A DNA stretch of 33,927 bases. Source: a virus. The stretch spans positions 1 to 33,927 of the IMG/VR virus record IMGVR_UViG_3300010885_004131; one strand, given 5' to 3'. Shown piece after piece: positions 12,061-33,927 of this stretch (within the stretch, counting starts at the first letter, position 1; each line of letters starts with the position of its first letter). The notes below the pieces were generated by a model. The model saw nothing but the letters and a program-made list of their open reading frames with translations, was not told where the DNA came from and ran no database searches. The translations under genes were made by a program, and so were the position numbers.

Positions 12061-13548
12061 TCACCATACCGTTTCAACACTAGGCGTTGGTGTGCTAGTT
12101 GCTCTGCGTGTCGCACGATCTAATGCCATACACAATGCAATGGCAGCGTCAATCTTTCTGCGTGACTTGCCTTTACTTAGACGCCACCCGTTCTCTGTCA
12201 TGCGCTGTGCTGCGCTAAGAACTTGGTCTGTGAACATTGGTGCGCCATCATGTAACACTTTGCCGCTTACGATCAGGTCGTAGGTTGCGCCACATGCAGG
12301 AATCATTCTGCTTGACGACTGTGGGAACTCAACCATTGGCAACCCATCGTCATACAACGCCTCAGCACTGCGTTGGAAGTAGGCAGGGTCGTAGGCAAAC
12401 TCAACGACCTTGTGTTGCGTGTGCAGTTCACGCAAGTGTTGCTCAACAGTTGCAATGTCTAACTCTGCCATATCGGGATGCCAAATCTTTGCGTCAACTG
12501 CAATGCGTCCGTCTGCTTGTGGCTGTGCAATAACAACTGCAATGGAGTCATGCTTCAACGCCATGTCAATCCCAACCCAACAATCATCAGTGCTGTTGAT
12601 TGCCACGTGACCTATAAGGCGTTCCCATGCGCCAACAGGCAGCCAACTCTCTTGTGTGCGTACCCATTGGTTGAGACGGAACCGTCTGAACGCCATCTCG
12701 CTTGTTTGTTTGGCAGAGACTTCCATGTCCTCGTAGTCCATCAAGTCAAGACTGAGGTTGGGATTGCTCTTGCGCCATTGCGCTCTGTCGTTGATGTCGC
12801 AATCGCCTTTGGCTTCCCACCAGTAGAACCCAAACGAGTCGTCGTCAATGTCTTTGGCTGCAACGCCCTTGCCATAGTTGTAGAGCCGTCCAGCAAGTGT
12901 GTCTAAGTCAAAGCCAGCAGTAGTAATTGCAACAGCCAACGGGTCTTGTCGTGCGCCAGAACCCAATGTGAGTGCATCCCAGAGGTCGTCATTGGGTTGC
13001 ACATGCAACTCGTCAAACACAACTAGCGATGGGTTCAAGCCTTGTTGCAGTTTGCCATCACTAGACAACACACGGTACACAGCCCCGTAGCGTGGCACTT
13101 CAATAGCGTCACGATACACCTTGCACTCTTTGGACAGCATTGGACTGTTCAAGACCTGTGCTTTGGCTTCACCAAACACGATGCGACCCTGTTGTCTGTC
13201 GCCAGCCGCCGAGTACACCTCAGCCCCAGGCTCTCCAGCGAGCAGCCCGTACAGTGCAAGCGCAGAACCCATCAACGACTTGCCTTGCTTACGGGGCAGA
13301 CCAATCAAGGCTCTACGGAAGCGCAAGCGTGAGTCGTCACGCCTCTCCAACAATGCGCCAAGCAACCAACGCTGCCAAGGTGTGAACTGCAAAGGTTGTC
13401 CAGCGAGCATGCCCTTGTGGACAGTCAGCCAACGCTCCGCAAACTGCGACACCAAATCACCATCAGTGATGTTGTTATGTCGCTCAACAAAGTAAGTTGG
13501 CGCCCACTTGCTAGTTGGCTTGAGTGCGCTTCTGTTGGACTCGGTCAC
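12061..13548 (-). CDS. Terminase large subunit
   Basis: A 495-residue protein from GTG 13548, with AGGAG six bases upstream. The Walker A-type motif GLPRKQGKS is at 83-91. Walker B VVFDE is at 176-180, followed by LH. The adenine/coupling region follows with AVAITTAGFDLDT near 205-217. The RNase H-like nuclease starts near residue 323 with WVGIDMALKHDS, where D328 is a likely catalytic acid. It translocates DNA into the head and cuts it. The gene overlaps the small-subunit gene by 38 bases. The family is HK97-like. Confidence 0.95.
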   Translation of the reverse strand: MTESNRSALKPTSKWAPTYFVERHNNITDGDLVSQFAERWLTVHKGMLAGQPLQFTPWQRWLLGALLERRDDSRLRFRRALIGLPRKQGKSLMGSALALYGLLAGEPGAEVYSAAGDRQQGRIVFGEAKAQVLNSPMLSKECKVYRDAIEVPRYGAVYRVLSSDGKLQQGLNPSLVVFDELHVQPNDDLWDALTLGSGARQDPLAVAITTAGFDLDTLAGRLYNYGKGVAAKDIDDDSFGFYWWEAKGDCDINDRAQWRKSNPNLSLDLMDYEDMEVSAKQTSEMAFRRFRLNQWVRTQESWLPVGAWERLIGHVAINSTDDCWVGIDMALKHDSIAVVIAQPQADGRIAVDAKIWHPDMAELDIATVEQHLRELHTQHKVVEFAYDPAYFQRSAEALYDDGLPMVEFPQSSSRMIPACGATYDLIVSGKVLHDGAPMFTDQVLSAAQRMTENGWRLSKGKSRRKIDAAIALCMALDRATRRATSTPTPSVETVW

Positions 13549-13993: not shown

Positions 13994-14302
13994 GTCATCA
14001 ACATACCAGATGGAACACAAACATCCGTGATACAAGAAACTGTTTCATTTCGCCGTCGTGTACGCCACGATGGCACAGGGGGGGTCTAGCCGTTGGTGTG
14101 CCAAGAAATCGGATGAGCGATGGCTGGTCATGGCTGGTCATGGCTGGTCGTGGCTGCACATGATTTAGCATGGCTGGTCATGGCTGGACATGATTGCTGC
14201 TGTAATCATGTGGCTTGGCATGGCTGGGCATGATTGCCATGGCTGGGTATGGCTGGGCATGGCTGGGAATGTAATCATGCCAAATCATAGTAATCAGCAT
14301 GG
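13994..14302. other. Non-coding region between HNH and small terminase genes
   Basis: This is the only gene-free stretch above 300 bases. It holds a run of seven G (14078-14084), the phased TGGCTGG repeat array (14121-14300) and no open frame I would support. Its place between an HNH nuclease gene and the terminase genes is where cos sites lie in many HK97-like phages, so it is a candidate packaging region. A replication origin is the other option. Confidence 0.6.
14121..14300. repeat. 10-bp-phased direct repeats (consensus TGGCTGGNCA)
   Basis: TGGCTGG-type units begin at 14121, 14131, 14141, 14151, 14171, 14181, 14211, 14221, 14240, 14250 and 14260, with spacings that are multiples of 10 except for one 9-base step. 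Degenerate units (TGATTTAGCA, TGATTGCTGC, TGATTGCCA) fill the register. The spacer TGTAATCATG occurs twice (14201-14210 and 14270-14279). One-helical-turn spacing suggests a protein-binding array on one DNA face. Confidence 0.85.
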
Positions 14303-15168: not shown

Positions 15169-15714
15169 CTAATAGCCTGCGAGTGCAAGGAACTCTGCCC
15201 GTGCCTCTGGATTTGTGCGCATGACGCCATGGAGCGAACTTGTAACCATTTCTCCACGCTTCTTGATGCCTCTATTGCACATGCACGAATGGTTGCCACG
15301 CACAACAACGCCACAGCCAAGTGGATTGATGTGCTCCAACATTGCATCAGCAATCTGTTTCGTCATGCGCTCTTGCACTTGTAAGCGCAATGCGTAAGCG
15401 TCAACGAGTCGTGCCAACTTGGACAGACCGACAATGCGTTCTGTTGGTATGTACGCCAATGTCACAGTGCCAGTGAACGGCAGCATGTGATGCTCACACA
15501 TGGACGAGTAAGGCACATCACGCAACACAACCATCTCATCAAACTGCACATCAAACGAGGTGGACAATATCTCTGCAATGTTTGTGTCATAGCCCTGCGT
15601 CATCTCTAGTAGTGCTTTGCACACACGCTTAGGAGTGTCCAACAGTCCATCACGGTCTGGGTCCTCGCCTATGTATGCAAGCAGTTGGCGTACTGCGTCT
15701 AGTGGTGGTTGCAT
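15169..15714 (-). CDS. folE: GTP cyclohydrolase I
   Basis: A 181-residue protein from ATG 15714, overlapping the queE stop by one base (TAATG). The upstream in-frame extension to 15786 lies inside queE. It converts GTP to dihydroneopterin triphosphate, the first step to preQ0. Zinc/catalytic motifs are complete: SMCEHHMLPF (C73, H75, H76), RIVGLSKLAR, and NHSCMCNRG (H142, C144). Length matches bacterial FolE. Its place at the end of a queC-queD-queE series shows it serves deazaguanine synthesis rather than folate, as in other phages with modified guanine. Confidence 0.95.
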   Translation of the reverse strand: MQPPLDAVRQLLAYIGEDPDRDGLLDTPKRVCKALLEMTQGYDTNIAEILSTSFDVQFDEMVVLRDVPYSSMCEHHMLPFTGTVTLAYIPTERIVGLSKLARLVDAYALRLQVQERMTKQIADAMLEHINPLGCGVVVRGNHSCMCNRGIKKRGEMVTSSLHGVMRTNPEARAEFLALAGY

Positions 15715-16475
15715 TAGATGCCACGCTTGTCGTTGTATGCAAGCACATGCAAGCGTGGCGTCAGGTTCCAGTTGTGACGCACACACTCATCAAAGACCCA
15801 TTGCAAGTTCTCTGTGACTTCGAGCGCTGTCCTGCCTTCTGGCATGAGCCATATTGTGTCTGCTTCTAAGCCGGCAAGGTTGGCAAGGTACTCAATCTGA
15901 TGTATGCAATGTGGTTGCTTGACAACGAACTTGAACACAGCGCCAAGATGTTTGTATGCGGTCAGTGCATCAATGTTGATTGCTGTGTCCCACTCAACGC
16001 CGCTGTGCCACAACTTGGGTGACACATTGAATTGAACGCCAAGGTCGCTGTACTCAACTGCTAGTGCAAGCCATTCAGGGTTTGGTATTTGTGTTCCGTT
16101 GGTTTCAATCTCCACTACATGACCACGATCACGCAATGTGCGTACAAGTTGTAGCAGTGATGTTTGCTGAATCATTGGTTCGCCGCCACTAATGACAACA
16201 CACTTGCAATGTTTGTCAACCATGTCTGCGATTGTGTCTGTTGGTAGTCGGCGTGTCTCTAACGCTTTGCTGTATGCGTAGCCGTTCTTGCCTGTCCAGT
16301 CCCATGTGAAAGGCGTGTCGCACCACTTGCAGTCAAGGTTGCATAGTGCTGTGCGAATGAATGACGCAGGTTTGCCTTGCGAGATGCCTTCGCCTTGCAG
16401 TGTTGGACCAAACACCTCGCTGACGGTGAGTAAGTGCTTGCTCATAATTCTGTTGCTTTCGTCTGTGTCAGGCAT
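15714..16475 (-). CDS. queE: 7-carboxy-7-deazaguanine synthase (radical SAM)
   Basis: A 253-residue protein from ATG 16475, with GGAG nine bases upstream. It converts carboxytetrahydropterin to 7-carboxy-7-deazaguanine. The substrate-binding start VFGPTLQGEG is present at 21-30. The radical SAM cluster is CNLDCKWCDT (C45, C49, C52). The SAM-binding SGGEP motif and the NVSPKLWHSG region follow, which fits QueE. Length is normal. The start lies about 20 bases from the CTGTGCTGCG element at 16497. Confidence 0.95.
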   Translation of the reverse strand: MPDTDESNRIMSKHLLTVSEVFGPTLQGEGISQGKPASFIRTALCNLDCKWCDTPFTWDWTGKNGYAYSKALETRRLPTDTIADMVDKHCKCVVISGGEPMIQQTSLLQLVRTLRDRGHVVEIETNGTQIPNPEWLALAVEYSDLGVQFNVSPKLWHSGVEWDTAINIDALTAYKHLGAVFKFVVKQPHCIHQIEYLANLAGLEADTIWLMPEGRTALEVTENLQWVFDECVRHNWNLTPRLHVLAYNDKRGI

Positions 16476-16496
16476 ATTTACGCTCTCCACAATGCG

Positions 16497-16523
16497 CTGT
16501 GCTGCGAGTTATGCACTGATGTG
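16497..16523 (-). repeat. CTGTGCTGCG element, copy upstream of queE
   Basis: CTGTGCTGCG at 16497-16506 with a diverged GATGTG at the position of GGTCTG. It lies in the 69-base gap between queD and queE, about 20 bases before the queE start. Confidence 0.55.
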
Positions 16524-16544
16524 GTGTAAGTGTGCGGCAGTTAT

Positions 16545-16895
16545 TCACGGGCGATACTCAGCCCATGTTCTTGGCGTCTCCGATATGCGTATTGCAACCA
16601 ACTCGGAGTACAACAGTCGGAACTTATCAAACAATGCTTCTGCCATGTTCTCTGCAGTTGGGCAATCAAACACATCGTTGAGGTGTCTGTGGTCTAATTT
16701 GTTGTCAATGTAATCCTTGATGGCAGTCAGTTGTCCGTAGTCACGCACGAAACCTGTTGCGTCAAGTGTGTTGCTTGCCAACACTGCGACCACGATGTAG
16801 TTGTGTCCGTGTAGGCGGCCGCATTGATGACCGTCTGGTAGTCCGTGCAGTTGATGTGATGCACTGAAATGAAACTCTTTGCTAATTGTGTACAT
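16545..16895 (-). CDS. queD: 6-carboxy-tetrahydropterin synthase
   Basis: A 116-residue protein from ATG 16895, separated by one base from the queC stop (TGACATG). It converts dihydroneopterin triphosphate to 6-carboxy-tetrahydropterin. The zinc ligands H14 (SASHQL), H29 and H31 (RLHGHNY) and catalytic C25 are present. The DHRHLND and PTAENMAE segments and a late Glu in RISETP complete the family pattern. Length is typical of short QueD proteins. Confidence 0.95.
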   Translation of the reverse strand: MYTISKEFHFSASHQLHGLPDGHQCGRLHGHNYIVVAVLASNTLDATGFVRDYGQLTAIKDYIDNKLDHRHLNDVFDCPTAENMAEALFDKFRLLYSELVAIRISETPRTWAEYRP

Positions 16896-16896
16896 G

Positions 16897-17592
16897 TCAG
16901 CGTGGGTCCTTGTAGTCAGGTGTTGCAAGATAAACAGTGTCGTCGGTTACTTCTGCGTCACGGAATGCTTCACGCCTCTCAAAGCATGTGCCGCATGCGC
17001 CACAATGTATGTCGCCGCCCTTGTAACAACTCCATGTCTTTGTGAAGTCAACGCCAAGTCTTGTGCCCTCTTGTGCTATGTCTGCCTTAGTCCAATTCAA
17101 GAATGGTGCAAGCACACCAAACCCCGGGACAGCAAAGCCATCAGTGGCAACACACAACATGGCGTCTATTGCTTTGATGAACGCAGGTCTGCAGTCTGGG
17201 TAGATGTAATGGTCGCCGCCATGCACACCTGTTGCTACATGCTTTGCGCCAACAGTGATTGCAAGTCCTGCAGCAATGTTGAGCATGATTGCATTGCGAT
17301 TGGGTACGACAGTGATGCGCATTGTTTGCTCTGCGTAATGCCCGTCTGGAACTTCCATTGCACTGTTTGTCAATGCACTGTTCTCTAGTAGGTCTGACAT
17401 GTTTGACAAGTCAACCAAGTGCCATGCTGCGTCTAGGTCTTTGGCACAATCCTCTGCGAATTGCAGTTCTTTGCGATGGCGTTGTCCGTAGTCAAACGAC
17501 ACAAGGTTGAGGTCGTAACCCTCAGCCTTTAGCATGTGCGCTAATACAACGCTGTCCATGCCGCCTGACACGATTGCTACTGCTCTAGTCAT
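16897..17592 (-). CDS. queC: 7-cyano-7-deazaguanine (preQ0) synthase
   Basis: A 231-residue protein from ATG 17592, with GGGAGACAAC upstream; its ATGACTAG start overlaps the upstream stop. It converts carboxydeazaguanine to preQ0 using ATP and ammonia. The PP-loop SGGMDS is at 9-14. The zinc site is C189, C197, C200 and C203 (CGACGTCFERREAF). GVHGGDHYIYPDCRPAF and the LAPFLNWTKADIA region are typical. No amidotransferase domain is fused, unlike Gat-QueC. QueF (preQ0 reduction) is not seen in this genome, so preQ0 or a non-reduced derivative is the expected base. Confidence 0.96.
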   Translation of the reverse strand: MTRAVAIVSGGMDSVVLAHMLKAEGYDLNLVSFDYGQRHRKELQFAEDCAKDLDAAWHLVDLSNMSDLLENSALTNSAMEVPDGHYAEQTMRITVVPNRNAIMLNIAAGLAITVGAKHVATGVHGGDHYIYPDCRPAFIKAIDAMLCVATDGFAVPGFGVLAPFLNWTKADIAQEGTRLGVDFTKTWSCYKGGDIHCGACGTCFERREAFRDAEVTDDTVYLATPDYKDPR

Positions 17593-18436
17593 GTTGTCTC
17601 CCTATTGCTTTCGCTGCTAACTGCATGTCGCCAAACAGTGTGCCCACAAGATAGATGTGCATGCCATCAACCTTATCAGGACAACTGATTGCCCCGTGTC
17701 TTTGTCGTAACTGCTCCTCGTATGCGTGCCAACTTGCAGCAGCAATCTGGATTGAGTAGTCACGCTTGTATTTGGCAGACTCAGCAATACATGCAGGGTC
17801 AAAGCCAAGACGCCTGATGTGTTTGGCATGCGGGTACACACTCGCAGGCTTGCCGACCTTGACCTGTACAAACTTCTTGCCGTTCCACAATGGCATGAGT
17901 CCAAAGCGATGCCCGTTGCACCACGTAGTTGAGTCTGCACTATGCCAGCGCAACGACTGCAACACCTTTGGATGTGTCATGCCGAACCCGTGAAACACTG
18001 TGCCTTGGTCTTGTGTGCGTTGCATGCAAGACGCAGCCCAACGGTGGTTGATGCTTACAGGCGACCCAACCATGCCGCCAAGACCTATGTACGGGTATGT
18101 CTTGGCAAGGCTGTCTAGCACGCTCATTGGTGTGCCTGTGTGAAACACGGGAATGACATTGCAACCACTGCGCTCCAAGTAGGTCTGGTTGGCATGCGTG
18201 GCATCAACATCCCTAATGACATCTAGGTTGACGGCAGTTGTGATGAGGTGTTGCCAACGCTTCAACCACGCTGCGTAGTCTTTGCGATCAATAGTTGCGC
18301 CACGGGTCCATGCGCTGTAAGCGCCACTGTCGGCAAACAACATTGGCTTGGTTGGCATGCCCTCAACAAGTTGGTCTAGGTCAAGTTTGCGCCCAAACCA
18401 GTACGACAGCAAGAACTTGGGTGGTTGGGGCAGCAT
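17585..18436 (-). CDS. dpdA: DpdA-like DNA guanine transglycosylase, copy a
   Basis: A 283-residue TIM-barrel protein of the TGT/DpdA superfamily, predicted to exchange guanine in DNA for preQ0. MLFADSGAYSAW (D36) matches the first catalytic Asp region of TGT. IGLGGMVG is at 117-124. SADSTTWCNGHRFG carries D168, the likely nucleophile. The tRNA-TGT zinc site (CxCxxC) is absent, as expected for DpdA. The C-terminus ends in a GMHIYLVG strand (258-265). No clear ribosome site precedes the ATG. The upstream gene ends with TAG in the same frame nine codons earlier, so coupling or read-through is possible. It is very similar to copy b. Confidence 0.88.
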   Translation of the reverse strand: MLPQPPKFLLSYWFGRKLDLDQLVEGMPTKPMLFADSGAYSAWTRGATIDRKDYAAWLKRWQHLITTAVNLDVIRDVDATHANQTYLERSGCNVIPVFHTGTPMSVLDSLAKTYPYIGLGGMVGSPVSINHRWAASCMQRTQDQGTVFHGFGMTHPKVLQSLRWHSADSTTWCNGHRFGLMPLWNGKKFVQVKVGKPASVYPHAKHIRRLGFDPACIAESAKYKRDYSIQIAAASWHAYEEQLRQRHGAISCPDKVDGMHIYLVGTLFGDMQLAAKAIGRQHD

Positions 18437-18460
18437 TGCGTGTTTCGTGCTATTACAGGG

Positions 18461-18976
18461 CTATTCACACGCTCTAGGCTGCTCTGTGCTGCGTGTTAGG
18501 GGTAGGTCTGGTGTATTGGTGCGGTTGGTTATGGGAGAGGCTTGTGGGATGTGTCCTGCGTGTTGTTTCATTGCTTGCAGTTGATAACCCATGCCGCACA
18601 TTCCAGGGGTTAGTACGCCACGTGGCGTTGCTGTGAATGGTGCATACAGGTCGCTCCACACTTGCTTTGCCATGTCAAGGTAATTCTTACCAGCCACGAT
18701 TATTACTTGCTCGTAGGTGATGTGCAGTGCCCGTGCTTGGCGTTGCAATGTGTCCACACTGACGCAACCTGCTTGACCCATGCGCAAGTTGTATGGCTCA
18801 ATGACTTTGCTTGCAGGGAGCAATCCGTATTTGGCGGACATGATGTAAATGTTGCGGTCTTTGGTAACGCTCCGTGCCCACTTGCGCATAGCAACAAAGA
18901 ACGCACCTTGGTAGAGGTCAATGGCAGGCTGTGCAGTTGTTGCCTTCTTTGCTCCGCAACTAATTACAACAATCAT
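18461..18976 (-). CDS. DUF6884-like protein in the dpd operon
   Basis: A 171-residue protein whose ATG overlaps the dpdA-b stop (ATGA). The N-terminus IVVISCGAKK, then ARDLY-like AIDLYQGAFF, then IMSAKYGLLPASKVIEPYN matches the DUF6884 pattern (Cys-x-x-K, LY-x-G, SAKYGL). The fold is distantly reminiscent of YaaA and the ArcS core (speculation). Position between two DpdA genes suggests work on the deazaguanine base or on DNA. The last 60 residues are low-complexity, and their DNA contains one CTGTGCTGCG element. Enzymatic role is unknown. Confidence 0.8.
   Translation of the reverse strand: MIVVISCGAKKATTAQPAIDLYQGAFFVAMRKWARSVTKDRNIYIMSAKYGLLPASKVIEPYNLRMGQAGCVSVDTLQRQARALHITYEQVIIVAGKNYLDMAKQVWSDLYAPFTATPRGVLTPGMCGMGYQLQAMKQHAGHIPQASPITNRTNTPDLPLTRSTEQPRACE
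18484..18510 (-). repeat. CTGTGCTGCG element, copy upstream of dpdA-a
   Basis: CTGTGCTGCG at 18484-18493 with GGTCTG at 18505-18510, spacing identical to the copy at 20594. It lies within the 3' end of the DUF6884-like gene, about 50 bases before dpdA-a. Confidence 0.6.
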
Positions 18977-19905
18977 TTGGCAATGGTCTTTGCTGCCTCT
19001 TGCAAGTTGTCTTTGGCACCATCAACCAAATACAAGTGCAGTCCATTGCTACGGTCTTTGCATGGCACAGCCCCATGTCTGCGTCGCAAGTGTGCTTCGT
19101 AGGCATGCCAACTAGCAGCGCTGATACGAATAGCAAACCTTTGGTGGTAACGCCCACGGTCTGCAATACATGCAGGGTCAACACCTAGTTGGCGTATCTC
19201 GGCGGCATATTTGTACACGCTCTTGGTGTCTCCAACACGCACCTTGACAAATTGGCGTCCAGTCCACAAGTCAACGGCTCCGAAACGATGTCCACTGCCC
19301 CAAGATGACGAGTCCACGCTGTACCAAGGCAGGCTTTCAATTAGTGCTTTGCGTGTTTGTCCGAAGCCATGAAACACTGTGCCCTCATCTTGTGTGCGCT
19401 TCATGCAAGCAGCACTCCAACGCAAGCATGCAGCCCCGGGGCTTCCCACCATGCCGCCAAGCGCAATGTATGGATACTGCTTTGCTAACCCGTCAAGGAC
19501 AGTCATGTCACTGCCAGTGTGGAACACGGGTATTGGTTGCAAGCCTTCACGCTCTATGAGGCGTTGGTTGCTTGCTGTTGCCTCTGCGTCTCGAATTACA
19601 TCAAGATTGACATACACACTCAACAAGTGTTCCCAACGCTTTAGCCACGTGGCATATTCTTTGACCTTGACTTCTGCGCCTTGTGTCCATGCGCTGTATG
19701 CACCACTGTCTGCAAAGAGCATTGGTCGTGTGCCCATGCCTGCAACCAACTCGTCCAAATCCATCTTCTTGAAATAGTGGTACGACAACAGGAACTTGGC
19801 AGGCTGTTGATCTGGCTTGTCTAATGCCATAAGTCCATGTCTGGCTGTGCTTGGTGCGGCTGCAAGGTACAGATGCAGACCATCAGGTCGCTTGGTTGTA
19901 TCCAT
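18973..19905 (-). CDS. dpdA: DpdA-like DNA guanine transglycosylase, copy b
   Basis: A 310-residue protein. I choose ATG 19905 (MDTTKRPDGLHLYL), which overlaps the parB end by 23 bases; the frame is open to 19983. It shares catalytic features with copy a: FADSGAYSAW (D66), ALGGMVG, and SVDSSSWGSGHRFG (D198). More than half the aligned residues look identical by eye. It carries an extra N-terminal segment with a GLHLYLAAA strand, and the same type of strand recurs at the C-terminus (GLHLYLVDG, 288-296). Two paralogues could form a heterodimer, since TGT enzymes act as dimers, or have different target sequences. Confidence 0.88.
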   Translation of the reverse strand: MDTTKRPDGLHLYLAAAPSTARHGLMALDKPDQQPAKFLLSYHYFKKMDLDELVAGMGTRPMLFADSGAYSAWTQGAEVKVKEYATWLKRWEHLLSVYVNLDVIRDAEATASNQRLIEREGLQPIPVFHTGSDMTVLDGLAKQYPYIALGGMVGSPGAACLRWSAACMKRTQDEGTVFHGFGQTRKALIESLPWYSVDSSSWGSGHRFGAVDLWTGRQFVKVRVGDTKSVYKYAAEIRQLGVDPACIADRGRYHQRFAIRISAASWHAYEAHLRRRHGAVPCKDRSNGLHLYLVDGAKDNLQEAAKTIAK

Positions 19906-20485
19906 TGAGCAGACCCAATATGCGTTCGTCGTCACTGTCGCCAGCAAGGTTGTGCCAAGTATCTTGCCAACGCTCGTACACACTTAGAGCCACACGGACT
20001 TTGATTACGCCTGTGAAGTCGTCATCGTCGTGCTCGCCAATGTCTGCTATCACCTGTTCCAAGTTTGGCGGCTCAAGTAATGCAAGCAAGTCGTCAAGGT
20101 CGCTTGGCTCATACAACGAGCCTTCCAATGCGTCTTTGGCAACAAGGTCTTTCAACAGGTCTGCTAATGCACTGTCATCGTAGGTGGCAAGGTCGTTGGC
20201 TTTGTTGTCTGCCAACAAGATGCGCAACGCCTCGTCATCGTCACAGTCAACATAGGTTGCCGCCACCTTTGTCCAGCCCAATGCTTTGGCTGCCTTGTAG
20301 GTGTGGTTGCCTGCAAGTATTTGGCTTGTTGATTTGTGTACAACGATTGGTCGGTACTGCCCGTTCTTCTCAAGGCTGATTGAGATTGCGCCAACATCGC
20401 CCTGCCTCACGTTCCTTGGATGTGTTGTCAGTGTGTCAATGTCAACTGCGAGGCGTGCTATCTCTGTTCTGATGTTGTGTGCCAT
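19883..20485 (-). CDS. ParB/sulfiredoxin-like nuclease-domain protein
   Basis: A 200-residue protein from ATG 20485, with GGAG eight bases upstream. The ParB-N-type domain spans about residues 10-105: TLTTHPRNVRQGDVGAI, then KNGQYRPIVVHK, then ILAGNHTYKAAKALGW, then VDCDDDEALRILLADNKAND. GNHT replaces the more usual GNHR. The C-terminal part is acidic (DDLLALLEPPN, then GEHDDDD). ParB-like genes are often beside DNA-modification genes in phages, and this is the first gene of the dpd/que operon. No partner ParA is seen, so partition is unlikely. Confidence 0.85.
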   Translation of the reverse strand: MAHNIRTEIARLAVDIDTLTTHPRNVRQGDVGAISISLEKNGQYRPIVVHKSTSQILAGNHTYKAAKALGWTKVAATYVDCDDDEALRILLADNKANDLATYDDSALADLLKDLVAKDALEGSLYEPSDLDDLLALLEPPNLEQVIADIGEHDDDDFTGVIKVRVALSVYERWQDTWHNLAGDSDDERILGLLNGYNQAT

Positions 20486-20576: not shown

Positions 20577-20626
20577 ACACGCTCCACGCTTCTCTGTGCT
20601 GCGAGTTACGGGGTGGTCTGGTATGT
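20577..20626 (-). repeat. CTGTGCTGCG element, copy upstream of parB-like gene
   Basis: CTGTGCTGCG at 20594-20603 is followed 12 bases later by GGTCTG (20615-20620). The same pair with the same spacing occurs at 18484-18510. Related copies are at 16497 and 12205. It lies 110 bases upstream of the parB-like start. Confidence 0.6.
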
Positions 20627-22218: not shown

Positions 22219-23175
22219 CTACCTTCCGTACCTTCCCATGCGGAATTGTCTGTCAAGAGATTCACGCAAGTCGGAATCGCTTATCTCGTCCATGTCGTGT
22301 TCCCATTGTTCCAACTCGTAGTCGTATGTGTCTGCATACTGCAACGGCTCAACATCAAACAACTCAAACTGTGCCTCTCTCTGCTTGTCTGTGCGTTGTG
22401 CCTTAGGTGCAGAGTACGGAGTGGAGTAGTAAGTGCTTGTCTTTGTGTAGTCGTGCTTTGCAACATAAGTAGGTGCAGGCAACTTCACTGTCTGCATCTC
22501 ACTCAACACGCCATCTTTCACTCGGACATAAGTGCCTTGCTGCATCTCATGTATGTATGCAAACACCAAGCCACAACGCTTCGCAACCTCTTTCAAGGTT
22601 TCTGCTGTACTTGCAAACACAACGCTTCCAAGTGCAGTCTGTCCAAACCACAACGGGCTGCTCGTAAGGCGTGCTGCATGTAGTTGCTCTTGCTTGTCAT
22701 AACTGCGCAACCACAACAAGGCTGCACTGCCACGCACCTCTGCAAGTCTGTCTCGCAACTTCGTGCCCTTCGTGCCGTGTGCAATCAAGGCAAAGATCGC
22801 CTCGCTGTCCACTTCGCCTTTGCGCTTGTAGTCCTCGCACATTGTCAACAACTCAATGTCGTTGCTGCAGTGTCCGTTGTGTACACCAATAACACCAGAG
22901 GCATCAATTGGATGGTTGTTCACTTCTCGCTTTGGACTTCCTTGCGTTGCCCAACGAGTATGCACAATGCCAGTTGTGCCAATGGATGTCTGCAACTGCT
23001 TTGCAAACACTTTGCCACTCACATTGTTCTTGCTAATGAATGTGCCGCCGTCTTTGTGCCACGACACACCACTTGCATCTTTGCCACGACTCTCCAACAG
23101 TCGCAACAACACTCTTGCGACCTTTGCAGGGTCACACTCGCCTTTCACTATTTGGAATGCTCCGATACCACACAT
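22219..23175 (-). CDS. Class II glutamine amidotransferase
   Basis: A 318-residue protein from ATG 23175, with GGAG eight bases upstream. The N-terminal nucleophile is intact: MCGI (Cys after the start Met). Family motifs follow: SRGKDASGVSW, HTRWATQG (R74), NNHPI, VHNGHCSND (N100, G101), and EVDSEAI with Asp. The glutaminase domain covers about 1-210, releasing ammonia from Gln. The last 100 residues are Tyr/Asp/Glu-rich and likely flexible, with no PurF, GlmS or AsnB synthase domain. It must therefore act with a partner, most simply the amidoligase encoded upstream. QueC, also ammonia-dependent, is another candidate. Confidence 0.9.
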   Translation of the reverse strand: MCGIGAFQIVKGECDPAKVARVLLRLLESRGKDASGVSWHKDGGTFISKNNVSGKVFAKQLQTSIGTTGIVHTRWATQGSPKREVNNHPIDASGVIGVHNGHCSNDIELLTMCEDYKRKGEVDSEAIFALIAHGTKGTKLRDRLAEVRGSAALLWLRSYDKQEQLHAARLTSSPLWFGQTALGSVVFASTAETLKEVAKRCGLVFAYIHEMQQGTYVRVKDGVLSEMQTVKLPAPTYVAKHDYTKTSTYYSTPYSAPKAQRTDKQREAQFELFDVEPLQYADTYDYELEQWEHDMDEISDSDLRESLDRQFRMGRYGR

Positions 23176-23201: not shown

Positions 23202-24398
23202 TTATGAGTTGTTGCTTCTTGCGGATGGGATGTTGCCTGCACGCTGCGTGAGGTAGTCGGCGGCATCTAATGCCAAGTAGCCGTTGTGTGCAAGTCGTTG
23301 CACCATTGCCCGTGCTCCTGCCACACCTTGCTCCCGTGTTGCCGAGACTGTGTCTGTGCGCATCACTTGGTTGCCCACTGCGTCAAGCACGGGAACTCTT
23401 GTGACTACGCCATTCAGGTCTTGCATTGTTGTACGAGGCGTTGTGACTTGGTGTTGCCACTCTGCGCCAAGAATGTTGTGTCCAAAGAAGTCTTGGTCAT
23501 TCACTCTTGCTGCGTCAAAGAATGCAAGGTGCAGTGCAACCCACGCACAAGCATTCGTGCCATTCAACGAGCCGTGGTGACTGCGCAATTCAAAGGTGCC
23601 GTGTCTGTAGTACGAGGCAACATTGAGTGCATAGTAACGGTCGTGCTGATGTGCCAATCCACGCACATCGCTTGTGTTGCGCCAATCGCTAATCAAGTTG
23701 TCCCATGTCTGGCGACTGCGCAACCTGCTCCACGAGCCATTTACTCTGCGCTCCAAGACAAAGGCTGTGAACGCCCACTGCCACTCCGAGTATGCCTGCA
23801 AGATGTTTGCCTGCTCCTCTTGTGGAAGTTGGTCAACGCCAATGTGTATGTGCATGCCGCACGACTCGTTGATGCGTGCCCCTGCATTGCGCAAGACCAT
23901 CATCACTGTCCGTGCCTCGGTTAGTCCGTCACTGCCACTAAGTATTGGGCTCACAACTTCGCAAGACCCGTTGCGACTGTTCAACGAACCGTCAGTCACA
24001 ACCTTCCAAGTTGGCATCGTTGCATGTGTGTAGCCTGCGTCCTCGCAACTGATTCCTGCATTGCGTAGTGCCGCCGTGGCTTGCCTTGTGTTCAGTCCAA
24101 CACACTCAACCTCAATACCAAAGGTCAATGTGCTTTGTGTGCTCCACGACTCTTGTGCATCAACTGTCAAACGATGTGTCTGTCCACCAATCGTCACTGC
24201 CACTGTGCGTGACCTGCGTGTTGGAATCTCTGCCTCACGACCTGCGAGTCGTAGTCCGCCAATCCATGCGTAGCGTGCCGTGCCTGCATCTGCGTATCCG
24301 CACATGCTTGCTATCGCTCGGAATGTATGTCCGCTGTCTCTCATGCTGAGGGCACGAAGATATCGTTCCCTCGTCTCTGGTGTTAGTTGCTGTGGCAT
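23202..24398 (-). CDS. Amidoligase (carboxylate-amine ligase-like) with N-terminal HTH
   Basis: A 398-residue protein from ATG 24398, with AAGGAG six bases upstream. Amidoligase_2 motifs: TFGIEVECVG (92-101), WKVVTDGSLN (131-140), CEVVSPILSG (146-155) and CGMHIHIG (180-187), with later FELRSHHGSLNGT. The family is related to glutamine synthetase and joins carboxyl and amino groups using ATP. Residues 10-50 (ERYLRALSMRDSGHTFRAIA, then CGYADAGTARYAW) look like a helix-turn-helix. The class II amidotransferase follows directly, the usual phage pairing. An ATP-grasp partner, common elsewhere, is not visible. Confidence 0.85.
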   Translation of the reverse strand: MPQQLTPETRERYLRALSMRDSGHTFRAIASMCGYADAGTARYAWIGGLRLAGREAEIPTRRSRTVAVTIGGQTHRLTVDAQESWSTQSTLTFGIEVECVGLNTRQATAALRNAGISCEDAGYTHATMPTWKVVTDGSLNSRNGSCEVVSPILSGSDGLTEARTVMMVLRNAGARINESCGMHIHIGVDQLPQEEQANILQAYSEWQWAFTAFVLERRVNGSWSRLRSRQTWDNLISDWRNTSDVRGLAHQHDRYYALNVASYYRHGTFELRSHHGSLNGTNACAWVALHLAFFDAARVNDQDFFGHNILGAEWQHQVTTPRTTMQDLNGVVTRVPVLDAVGNQVMRTDTVSATREQGVAGARAMVQRLAHNGYLALDAADYLTQRAGNIPSARSNNS

Positions 24399-32219: not shown

Positions 32220-33137
32220 TTAGAATGTAACTACTAGATTGCTGGTTGAATTGAAGGTGTGAATTGTATAAACGCCTGATGTCGTAATTGTTCCACCAGT
32301 AATGGTCTTACCAGCAGCAGTCGTCGTCACATAGCGACAGATGACCACACCTGACCCACCGTTGCCACCTGTGCCAGCGACCTGATAATTCGCACCACCA
32401 CCACCACCACCAGTGTTCGCTGTGCCAGCAACACCGTTGTTTGGACTACTTGTGTTACCTGCACCACCACCACCGTTGCCACCTGCGCCACCTGTAGTCG
32501 TGTCTGCACCTCCACCACCGCCACCTGCACGAAATACAGATGTACCTGTGATGCTTGAAGCCAAGCCAACGCCACCTGCACCACCGACTGTGTTTGATGG
32601 TGCAACAATTCCTGCTGCACCTGCGCCACCGCCACCACCTGCTGCGTATGTAGAACTTGTTGATGCACCAGCGAAACCTTGTGTTGGTGATGCAGCAGCA
32701 CCACCAGCAAATGCGCCGTTGTGACCACCTGCACCACCAGAGCCACCTGATGCGCCTGCACCAGTGCCAGTTACATAACCAGCACGACCGCCGCCTGTAG
32801 CAGTGATCGTTGTGAGACCAGTTCCAGCGATAGAACTATCAGAGCCGTTGTTGCCAATAGCGTTTAGAACCGCTGCACCACCACCACCCACTGTGATCGT
32901 ATAAGTAACGGTGACAGTAGGTGTGAACACAGCCATCGCTGCACCACCACCACCAGTGTATTCGCCAATGACAGATGAACGATATCCACCTGCGCCACCA
33001 CCACCTTGACTACCTGCACCACCACCAGCGATCACCAGATATTCAATGTCGATTGGGAATGTTGTTGTACCTAAACCTGTACCAAGCCAAGTACCAACCT
33101 GTGTGCCGACACGGCTGCGAGTGCGAGCGTTCCCCAT
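32220..33137 (-). CDS. Gly-rich tail fibre A
   Basis: A 305-residue protein from ATG 33137, overlapping the stop of fibre B by one base (TAATG). The N-terminus (RVGTQVGTWLGTGLGTTTF, then IEYLVIAGGGAG) leads to long Gly-rich runs, with an AAGIVAPSNTVGGAGGVG type pattern. The protein ends in a beta domain (SGVVICRYVTTTAAGKTITG, then YTIHTFNSTSNLVVTF). It is a paralogue of fibre B, with the same end motif (SGIVICRYITAD, then YTVHTFTSSSSLVIS). It may form polyglycine-II-type fibres for host contact (inference). Confidence 0.85.
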   Translation of the reverse strand: MGNARTRSRVGTQVGTWLGTGLGTTTFPIDIEYLVIAGGGAGSQGGGGAGGYRSSVIGEYTGGGGAAMAVFTPTVTVTYTITVGGGGAAVLNAIGNNGSDSSIAGTGLTTITATGGGRAGYVTGTGAGASGGSGGAGGHNGAFAGGAAASPTQGFAGASTSSTYAAGGGGGAGAAGIVAPSNTVGGAGGVGLASSITGTSVFRAGGGGGGADTTTGGAGGNGGGGAGNTSSPNNGVAGTANTGGGGGGANYQVAGTGGNGGSGVVICRYVTTTAAGKTITGGTITTSGVYTIHTFNSTSNLVVTF

Positions 33138-33804
33138 TACGAGATCACCAGACTGCTAGACGATGTGAAGGTATGCACCGTGTACGCACCCGATGTCGTT
33201 GTTGTGCCACCAGTGATATTGAAACCTAGTGCTGTCTTGTCTGCTGTGATGTAGCGACAGATGACGATGCCTGAACCACCAGCGATGCCAGCACATTGAA
33301 AGACTGTGCCACCGCCGCCACCGCCACCAGTGTTTGCTGTGCCAGCGACAGATACACCGCTTGAACCACCACCACGACCACCACCACCTGATCCACCAGC
33401 ACCGTTTGCATACCAACTGCTGACTGTTATGTAGTTTGCACCACCACCACCTCCACCAGCGTATGTCACTGATGAGCCTGAAATACTTGATGCGCTACCA
33501 TTACCACCAGTGCCACCGTTATCAGTATTCTTAGTTCCTGCTGCGCCAGCACCACCGCCACCACCACTACTTCCTGGTCCACCGCCACCGCCATCATTAC
33601 CTTGACCAACTGTTCCTGCGCCACCACTTAGAACAGTGTTGTAACCTTGATTTCCACCACCCGAACCACCTGCTGCAGCACCTACTCCGTAACCACCGCC
33701 ACCGCCACCACCCGTAGAAGTGATTGTGCTAAGCACCGAGTTTGCACCATTAGAGCCACCAGACTCAACATTGGCAGCACCACCACCACCGACTGTCGCA
33801 GTGT
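33137..33804 (-). CDS. Gly-rich tail fibre B, C-terminal part (joins 229-1)
   Basis: This is the continuation of the gene starting at 229, 222 residues here, ending at a stop at 33137. Runs of Gly with Ala, Asn and Ser (GGGGGGYGVGAAAGGSGGG type) are broken by short beta segments (SASSISGSSVTYAGGGGG). The C-terminal domain has SGIVICRYITADKTALGFNI, then TSGAYTVHTF. On the linear contig it would appear truncated at 33841; across the circle it is complete. Confidence 0.85.
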
Positions 33805-33927
33805 AGGTTCCTGTGCCGAGTGTCAAAGTTCCAGTTCTCATACCGCCAGCACCACCGCCACCACCGCCACCACTTTGGTTTGACTGGTAGCCACCACCTG
33901 CGCCACCTGCGACGACAAGATATTCAA
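33805..33927. repeat. Terminal direct repeat, right copy (circular join)
   Basis: This stretch is identical to bases 1-123. It lies inside the Gly-rich fibre B reading frame, which continues without interruption when the two copies are merged. Confidence 0.95.

Follow-up and report, generated by a model that had tools for sequence, protein, structure and literature searches.

A phage operon with genes for preQ0 synthesis, two DpdA-type transglycosylases and an embedded DUF6884 protein, predicted to modify phage DNA

The virus record IMGVR_UViG_3300010885_004131, analysed here in its entirety (33,927 bases; hereafter, the window), carries an eight-gene operon which very probably makes the 7-deazaguanine base preQ0 (7-cyano-7-deazaguanine) and inserts it in DNA. 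The operon is a known, Rosebush-type deazaguanine module; its unusual parts are a second complete copy of the DNA transglycosylase DpdA and a DUF6884 protein encoded within the operon. In the host cell, FolE, QueD, QueE and QueC would convert GTP to preQ0, and two DpdA1-type enzymes, probably loaded onto the DNA by a ParB-like partner, would swap guanine for preQ0 in phage DNA by way of a covalent aspartate intermediate. Having two DpdA copies would most likely broaden the modified sequence contexts. The DUF6884 protein may process some or all of the inserted base (dPreQ0, the deoxynucleoside form of preQ0) onward, most likely to the amide dADG (2'-deoxy-7-amido-7-deazaguanosine), and the modified DNA would resist host restriction enzymes. 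In this respect, phage CAjan without dpdA loses the modification and its DNA becomes fully digestible (PMC6884629).

The eight genes form a single run on the minus strand, from 20485 down to 15169. In 5' to 3' order they are:

19883-20485, minus strand: ParB-like gene, the operon's first (ATG at 20485; a longer GTG frame reaches 20587); PF02195 (ParB_N), 3.8e-7
18973-19905, minus strand: DpdA-A, predicted 7-deazaguanine DNA transglycosylase of DpdA1 type; phrog_887, 7e-48, fold and catalytic motifs
18461-18976, minus strand: DUF6884 protein, possible minimal DpdC/ArcS-like nitrile-processing enzyme; PF21818, 1.1e-20; PADLOC DpdC, 3e-7
17585-18436, minus strand: DpdA-B, second predicted DpdA1-type transglycosylase, paralogue of DpdA-A; phrog_887, 4e-46, and catalytic motifs
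16897-17592, minus strand: QueC, preQ0 synthase; PF06508, 3.1e-62; TIGR00364, 189.8 bits, above cut-off
16545-16895, minus strand: QueD, 6-carboxytetrahydropterin synthase; PF01242, 7.7e-30
15714-16490 (alternative ATG at 16475), minus strand: QueE, 7-carboxy-7-deazaguanine synthase; phrog_2076, 1.3e-58
15169-15786 (probable ATG at 15714), minus strand: FolE, GTP cyclohydrolase I; PF01227, 3.7e-65; TIGR00063, 209 bits, above cut-off

A sequence-only reading of this DNA had proposed an eight-gene operon at 15169-20485, and all eight genes were found there, with families assigned by Pfam and PHROGs. Stop and start overlap at ParB/DpdA-A, DpdA-A/DUF6884, DpdA-B/QueC and QueE/FolE, but the DUF6884/DpdA-B and QueD/QueE junctions have a short gap, and a copy of a repeated 46-nt element lies in or close to each.

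The same reading had claimed a complete path from GTP to preQ0 and the absence of QueF, and both claims held. Key residues of the four synthesis enzymes are in place when aligned with solved structures: the PP-loop and zinc cysteines of QueC (2pg3), the Cys/His metal ligands of QueD (2oba) and the CX3CX2C cluster motif of QueE (5tgs); FolE was aligned with 1fb1. QueC has no amidotransferase fusion. The window has a 123-nt exact direct terminal repeat (1-123 is identical to 33805-33927), which indicates a complete genome of about 33.8 kb, and it encodes a tailed-phage gene set comprising terminase, portal, prohead protease, major head protein and tape measure. Since the genome is complete, missing genes become meaningful, namely a separate QueF and an ArcS-type DUF5591 domain, for neither of which the window gave a match; the sole QueF-profile match sits within FolE, so a hidden QueF was rejected. 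In the absence of a separate QueF, the expected base is dPreQ0 or an unreduced derivative. By the grouping of Hutinet 2019, the combination of DpdA with FolE, QueD, QueE and an unfused QueC places the window in the dPreQ0 group; an unfused glutamine amidotransferase (Gat) gene lies nearby.

Both transglycosylases match phrog_887, annotated as queuine tRNA-ribosyltransferase. Neither gave a match in Pfam, and a DpdA profile searched against PDB sequences gave no match to tRNA-guanine transglycosylases (TGT), so that the TGT relation is visible by fold comparison only. An AlphaFold model of DpdA-A, based on 40 aligned sequences from the window and from viral contigs (predicted local distance difference test, pLDDT, 89.9), has TGT enzymes as its top structural matches, and superposes on the DpdA crystal structure 7ui4, a DNA preQ0 insertase, with Z 15.8 and a root-mean-square deviation of 3.3 over 238 residues. 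By this model, DpdA-A has the TGT/DpdA fold. The same fold is presumed for DpdA-B from its identity of about 60% to DpdA-A. The catalytic aspartates are kept in both copies, one in a DSG motif and the nucleophilic one in (V/A)DS (DSS or DST). Moreover, both contain an FHGFG histidine which aligns with the VHGFG motif holding H196 of the phage 9g DpdA. DpdA2 is distinguished by the lack of the histidine at position 196 (PMC6884629); the presence of its equivalent indicates that both copies are of DpdA1 type, and a DpdA2 assignment was rejected. The earlier proposal of two DpdA-like transglycosylases is thus borne out, and the profile search it had suggested for the two proteins came out in favour of TGT/DpdA, by the phrog_887 matches together with the DpdA-A fold. 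Insertion of preQ0 in DNA by these two enzymes is the predicted activity.

Scans with DpdA alignments gave 35 loci in viral contigs and 12 in genomes, labelled here by L-numbers where they were compared with the window operon; a DpdA-B query against viral contigs and alignment A3 against genome contigs found no loci. Separated at 85% FolE identity, the loci form 42 operon groups, which follow the rule ParB-DpdA-(DpdA)-(DUF6884)-(QueC)-QueD-QueE-FolE, with two DpdA genes in 15 groups. Dozens of loci in phages and prophages keep this order, which argues that the operon is not a product of chance. The named relatives are mostly phages of, or sequences in, Actinomycetota, together with one Azonexaceae bin. 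The viral contig L008 (IMGVR_UViG_3300044730_000095) carries all eight genes in the window's order, ahead of an HNH gene, with identities to the window of 76% for DpdA-A, 64% for DpdA-B and 63% for DUF6884. Three further loci (L004, L005 and L011) share this operon but have copy A as their one DpdA. In Arbiter, a Mycobacterium phage of the Rosebush species, the order ParB-like regulator-DpdA-QueC-QueD-QueE-FolE-terminase matches the window backbone, but the rosebushvirus operon has a single DpdA and does not include the DUF6884 gene, which is on the opposite strand. Rosebush DNA has been measured to carry about 28% of G as dPreQ0 (PMC6884629). Contrary to the sequence-only reading, the gene combination is therefore not new, since the Rosebush species, for which dPreQ0 has been measured, shares the backbone and L008 has all eight genes in order. 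Microbacterium phage Nicole72 also resembles the window (ParB-DpdA-x-DpdA-QueC-QueD-QueE-FolE-terminase), but there QueC forms a fusion with a glutamine amidotransferase domain, DUF6884 is lacking and the DpdA pair is of separate origin. The bacterial dpdABC genes of the Dpd restriction island share with the window a DpdA-type transglycosylase, a ParB-superfamily partner and a DpdC-like domain. Unlike them, the window has a phage-type DpdA, a ParB that is not DpdB by profile, a DUF6884 protein of half the DpdC length and preQ0 synthesis within the same operon.

A branch of the family has FolE, QueD, QueE and DpdA with no QueC in the stretch read (L003, L025, L030, L032, L033, L035, L036, L040, L041, L053, L055, L056 and L059). 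The base inserted by this branch may be a carboxy or decarboxylated deazaguanine.

The ParB-like protein matches phrog_723 (ParB-like, 4e-40) and phrog_498 (DNA methyltransferase, 5e-27), and a ParB gene is present in 37 of the 42 operon groups. From this position, it may act in DNA loading or in specificity. In the Streptomyces-type loci L030, L032-L035, L052, L053, L055 and L056, two or three ParB-like genes are present per operon, as if ParB also multiplied.

Further information about the second DpdA came from trees. The B copies of the window and L008 pair at 100/100 inside the A-copy clade, while other DpdA pairs belong to Nicole72, to a clade of Streptomyces type and to a large clade in which every member is paired. 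As the pairs stand at separate places in the trees, duplication most likely occurred at least four times. In every pair examined both copies are catalytically complete. At least four origins with both copies intact argue that selection has kept the second copy for a function of its own and that it is not decaying, and a QTRT2-like inactive subunit was rejected, since each copy of all pairs keeps the catalytic residues. Partners diverge more than matched non-partners at residues 203-206, just past the catalytic Asp (p 0.04), and at 183-192 (p 0.02), these p values being uncorrected and drawn from seven tested regions of related sequences. We propose, tentatively, that the doubled DpdA widens the range of modified sequence contexts. 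It is also possible, if somewhat doubtful, that the two proteins form one obligate heterodimer or that the second copy is redundant, instead of being two context-specific enzymes. The paired dpdA genes are neighbours in most operons, as a heterodimer or redundancy would allow. In the eukaryotic TGT pair one subunit is inactive. The completeness of both copies in every pair speaks against a heterodimer or redundancy, as does the presence of copy A alone in the close relatives L004, L005 and L011, and a fresh redundant copy fits poorly with 60% identity between A and B and a matching B copy in L008.

Several points weigh against the prediction that the operon modifies DNA in this way. The QueE score is far under the NCBIfam equivalog cut-offs, so the QueE call depends on phrog_2076, the cluster motif and the place in the operon; the NCBIfam score of QueD (89.1) is marginally below its cut-off (89.25). 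The ParB-like protein showed an hhalign probability of 0.1% against bacterial DpdB and no PADLOC DpdB match, and its assignment as DpdB was rejected for lack of profile similarity. A change of specificity between the DpdA paralogues is weakly supported, because p values of 0.02-0.04 across seven regions of related sequences amount to a hint. Finally, Mycobacterium phage Orion has dpdA but no preQ0 source and no modification (PMC6884629), from which it follows that a dpdA gene alone is not proof of modification.

With preQ0 in DNA as the preferred reading, the question is whether it is processed further. On balance we lean towards dPreQ0 itself as the end product. A reason for caution is the DUF6884 protein. 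Its match to DpdC covers positions 47-115 of 312, and with 171 aa against about 310 aa it is short of the full DpdC length, the C-terminal part being missing. Each of the nine DUF6884 proteins encoded within operons matches DpdC profiles, and the motifs CxxxK, YxG, SAxxG and PY are invariant among them; the first three also occur in two bacterial DpdC proteins whose genes neighbour a DpdB-like gene. A profile comparison of DUF6884 with DpdC gave 88.7% probability over 98 columns. This suggested link to DpdC, drawn from sequence comparison, goes beyond the sequence-only reading. The DUF6884 model (pLDDT 87.6) is most similar to YaaA (Z 8.3) and also resembles AF0587 (Z 7.6), both modest matches, and the DUF6884 profile gave no match among PDB sequences up to E 10. 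The ArcS homologue of phage nt-1, a DUF5591 protein, matches AF0587 by sequence at PCxxxKPY, both showing Cys-x3-Lys/Arg-Pro-Tyr. Archaeal ArcS and the nt-1 protein thus resemble the window DUF6884 in likeness to the AF0587 fold and in a Cys-x3-Lys/Arg motif, but show no sequence-profile similarity to it. Judged by their order in the chain, and not by residue-level superposition, the Cys-Lys pairs would occupy an equivalent site. QueF-L acts on the same nitrile through a cysteine thioimide (PMC5485725), a precedent which makes Cys-based nitrile chemistry plausible for DUF6884.

These likenesses raise the possibility, which we consider rather doubtful, that the end product is dADG, DUF6884 being a minimal DpdC that hydrates the dPreQ0 nitrile in DNA with its conserved Cys and Lys. 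The embedded genes occur at two operon positions, after DpdA in the window clade or between QueC and QueD in L021, L022, L046 and L047, and only where QueC makes the nitrile: DUF6884 is present in 9 of 29 QueC-positive groups and in none of 13 QueC-negative ones (p 0.04, uncorrected for relatedness). This distribution would suit dADG, as would the motifs and fold likenesses above; the short length of the protein would not. Moreover, 35 mycobacteriophage records of rosebushvirus type have DUF6884 genes that are nearly identical, and the one that was read retains CxxxK, yet Rosebush DNA has dPreQ0 and only about 0.003% of G as dADG (PMC6884629). In Arbiter this gene is gp8 (L070:6011-6481), on the opposite strand directly past the terminase and outside the operon, with YxS in place of YxG. 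The family is also found in 148 mycobacteriophage records, many of them small genomes, counted regardless of DpdA. The rosebushviruses, in which the gene is accompanied by mere traces of dADG, thus weaken DUF6884 as a certain dADG synthase.

Alternatively, DUF6884 could, rather than make a base, bind or repair DNA in the manner of YaaA or YfjM, acting on DNA that is modified or damaged, with plain dPreQ0 as the end product; we regard this as a reasonable possibility, though short of probable. It would agree with YaaA as the best fold match, with the report of YfjM among interactors of DNA lesions by the Pfam authors (PMC11701544), and with the nearly pure dPreQ0 of Rosebush, whose species has the gene. 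The best PADLOC match of the protein, scoring above DpdC, is likewise a candidate defence family. However, that DUF6884 is embedded in QueC-positive operons only, flanked by dpdA genes or by queC and queD, suggests a role in the pathway, and the conserved Cys-Lys pair suits nitrile chemistry.

A third derivative, dG+ (2'-deoxyarchaeosine), is very unlikely. In this reading a free-standing class II glutamine amidotransferase would feed ammonia to QueC or DUF6884, much as in the Gat-QueC of phage 9g, which leads to dG+ (PMC6884629). A candidate gene for such a role lies upstream of the operon, next to an amidoligase gene:

22219-23175: class II glutamine amidotransferase
23202-24398: adjoining amidoligase

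The amidotransferase gene is conserved in L004, L005, L008, L011 and L016. However, it is paired with the amidoligase, and the pair is also present in Arthrobacter phage Salgado, in which no DpdA was found by the profile that found DpdA in Finch and Arbiter. Its likeness to the Gat part of the 9g Gat-QueC is weak (24%). Among these outcomes, dPreQ0 remains the end product that we favour.

The 46-nt element occurs upstream of three operon genes:

20577-20622, minus strand: copy upstream of ParB; a weak relative lies upstream of ParB in L004 (E 0.06)
18467-18512, minus strand: copy upstream of DpdA-B, overlapping the 3' end of the DUF6884 gene; same site in L008 (2.5e-5)
16480-16525, minus strand: copy upstream of QueE; same site in L008 (0.004)

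The element is a candidate phage promoter or regulatory element, which would divide the operon into three units. The two gapped junctions that carry it point to possibly more than one transcription unit. A sigma-70 promoter scan of the operon region gave nothing above chance. A fourth, weak copy lies at 12189-12228. Elsewhere in the window, the interval that separates the HNH gene from the small terminase gene holds about ten 10-bp repeats of the ATGGCTGGTC type (14110-14288), which may serve in packaging or replication. Two adjoining glycine-rich proteins of one family (PF21722, phrog_2295) are encoded at the record's right end (32220-33137 and 33137-33841).

Taking the operon as a whole, it is tempting to propose a phage-borne, compact equivalent of dpdABC with its own preQ0 pathway, made of a ParB-like loader, two context-specific DpdA enzymes and a minimal DpdC-like protein converting dPreQ0 to dADG. 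In this full form the proposal is unlikely; if true, the repeated duplication of DpdA in actinobacterial phages would be a general way to widen the range of protected sequences. Tandem DpdA pairs of several origins, with both enzymes intact, predict that each such phage has two sequence contexts. The DUF6884 protein of these operons is a short candidate for a nitrile-processing enzyme acting on DNA, and would tie its family, whose function is unknown, to DpdC and possibly to ArcS. The modification-dependent defence GrwAB targets deazaguanine bases, with escape mutants in DpdA (PMC12137116). Deazaguanine bases shield phage DNA from restriction, yet can themselves be the target of defences such as GrwAB.

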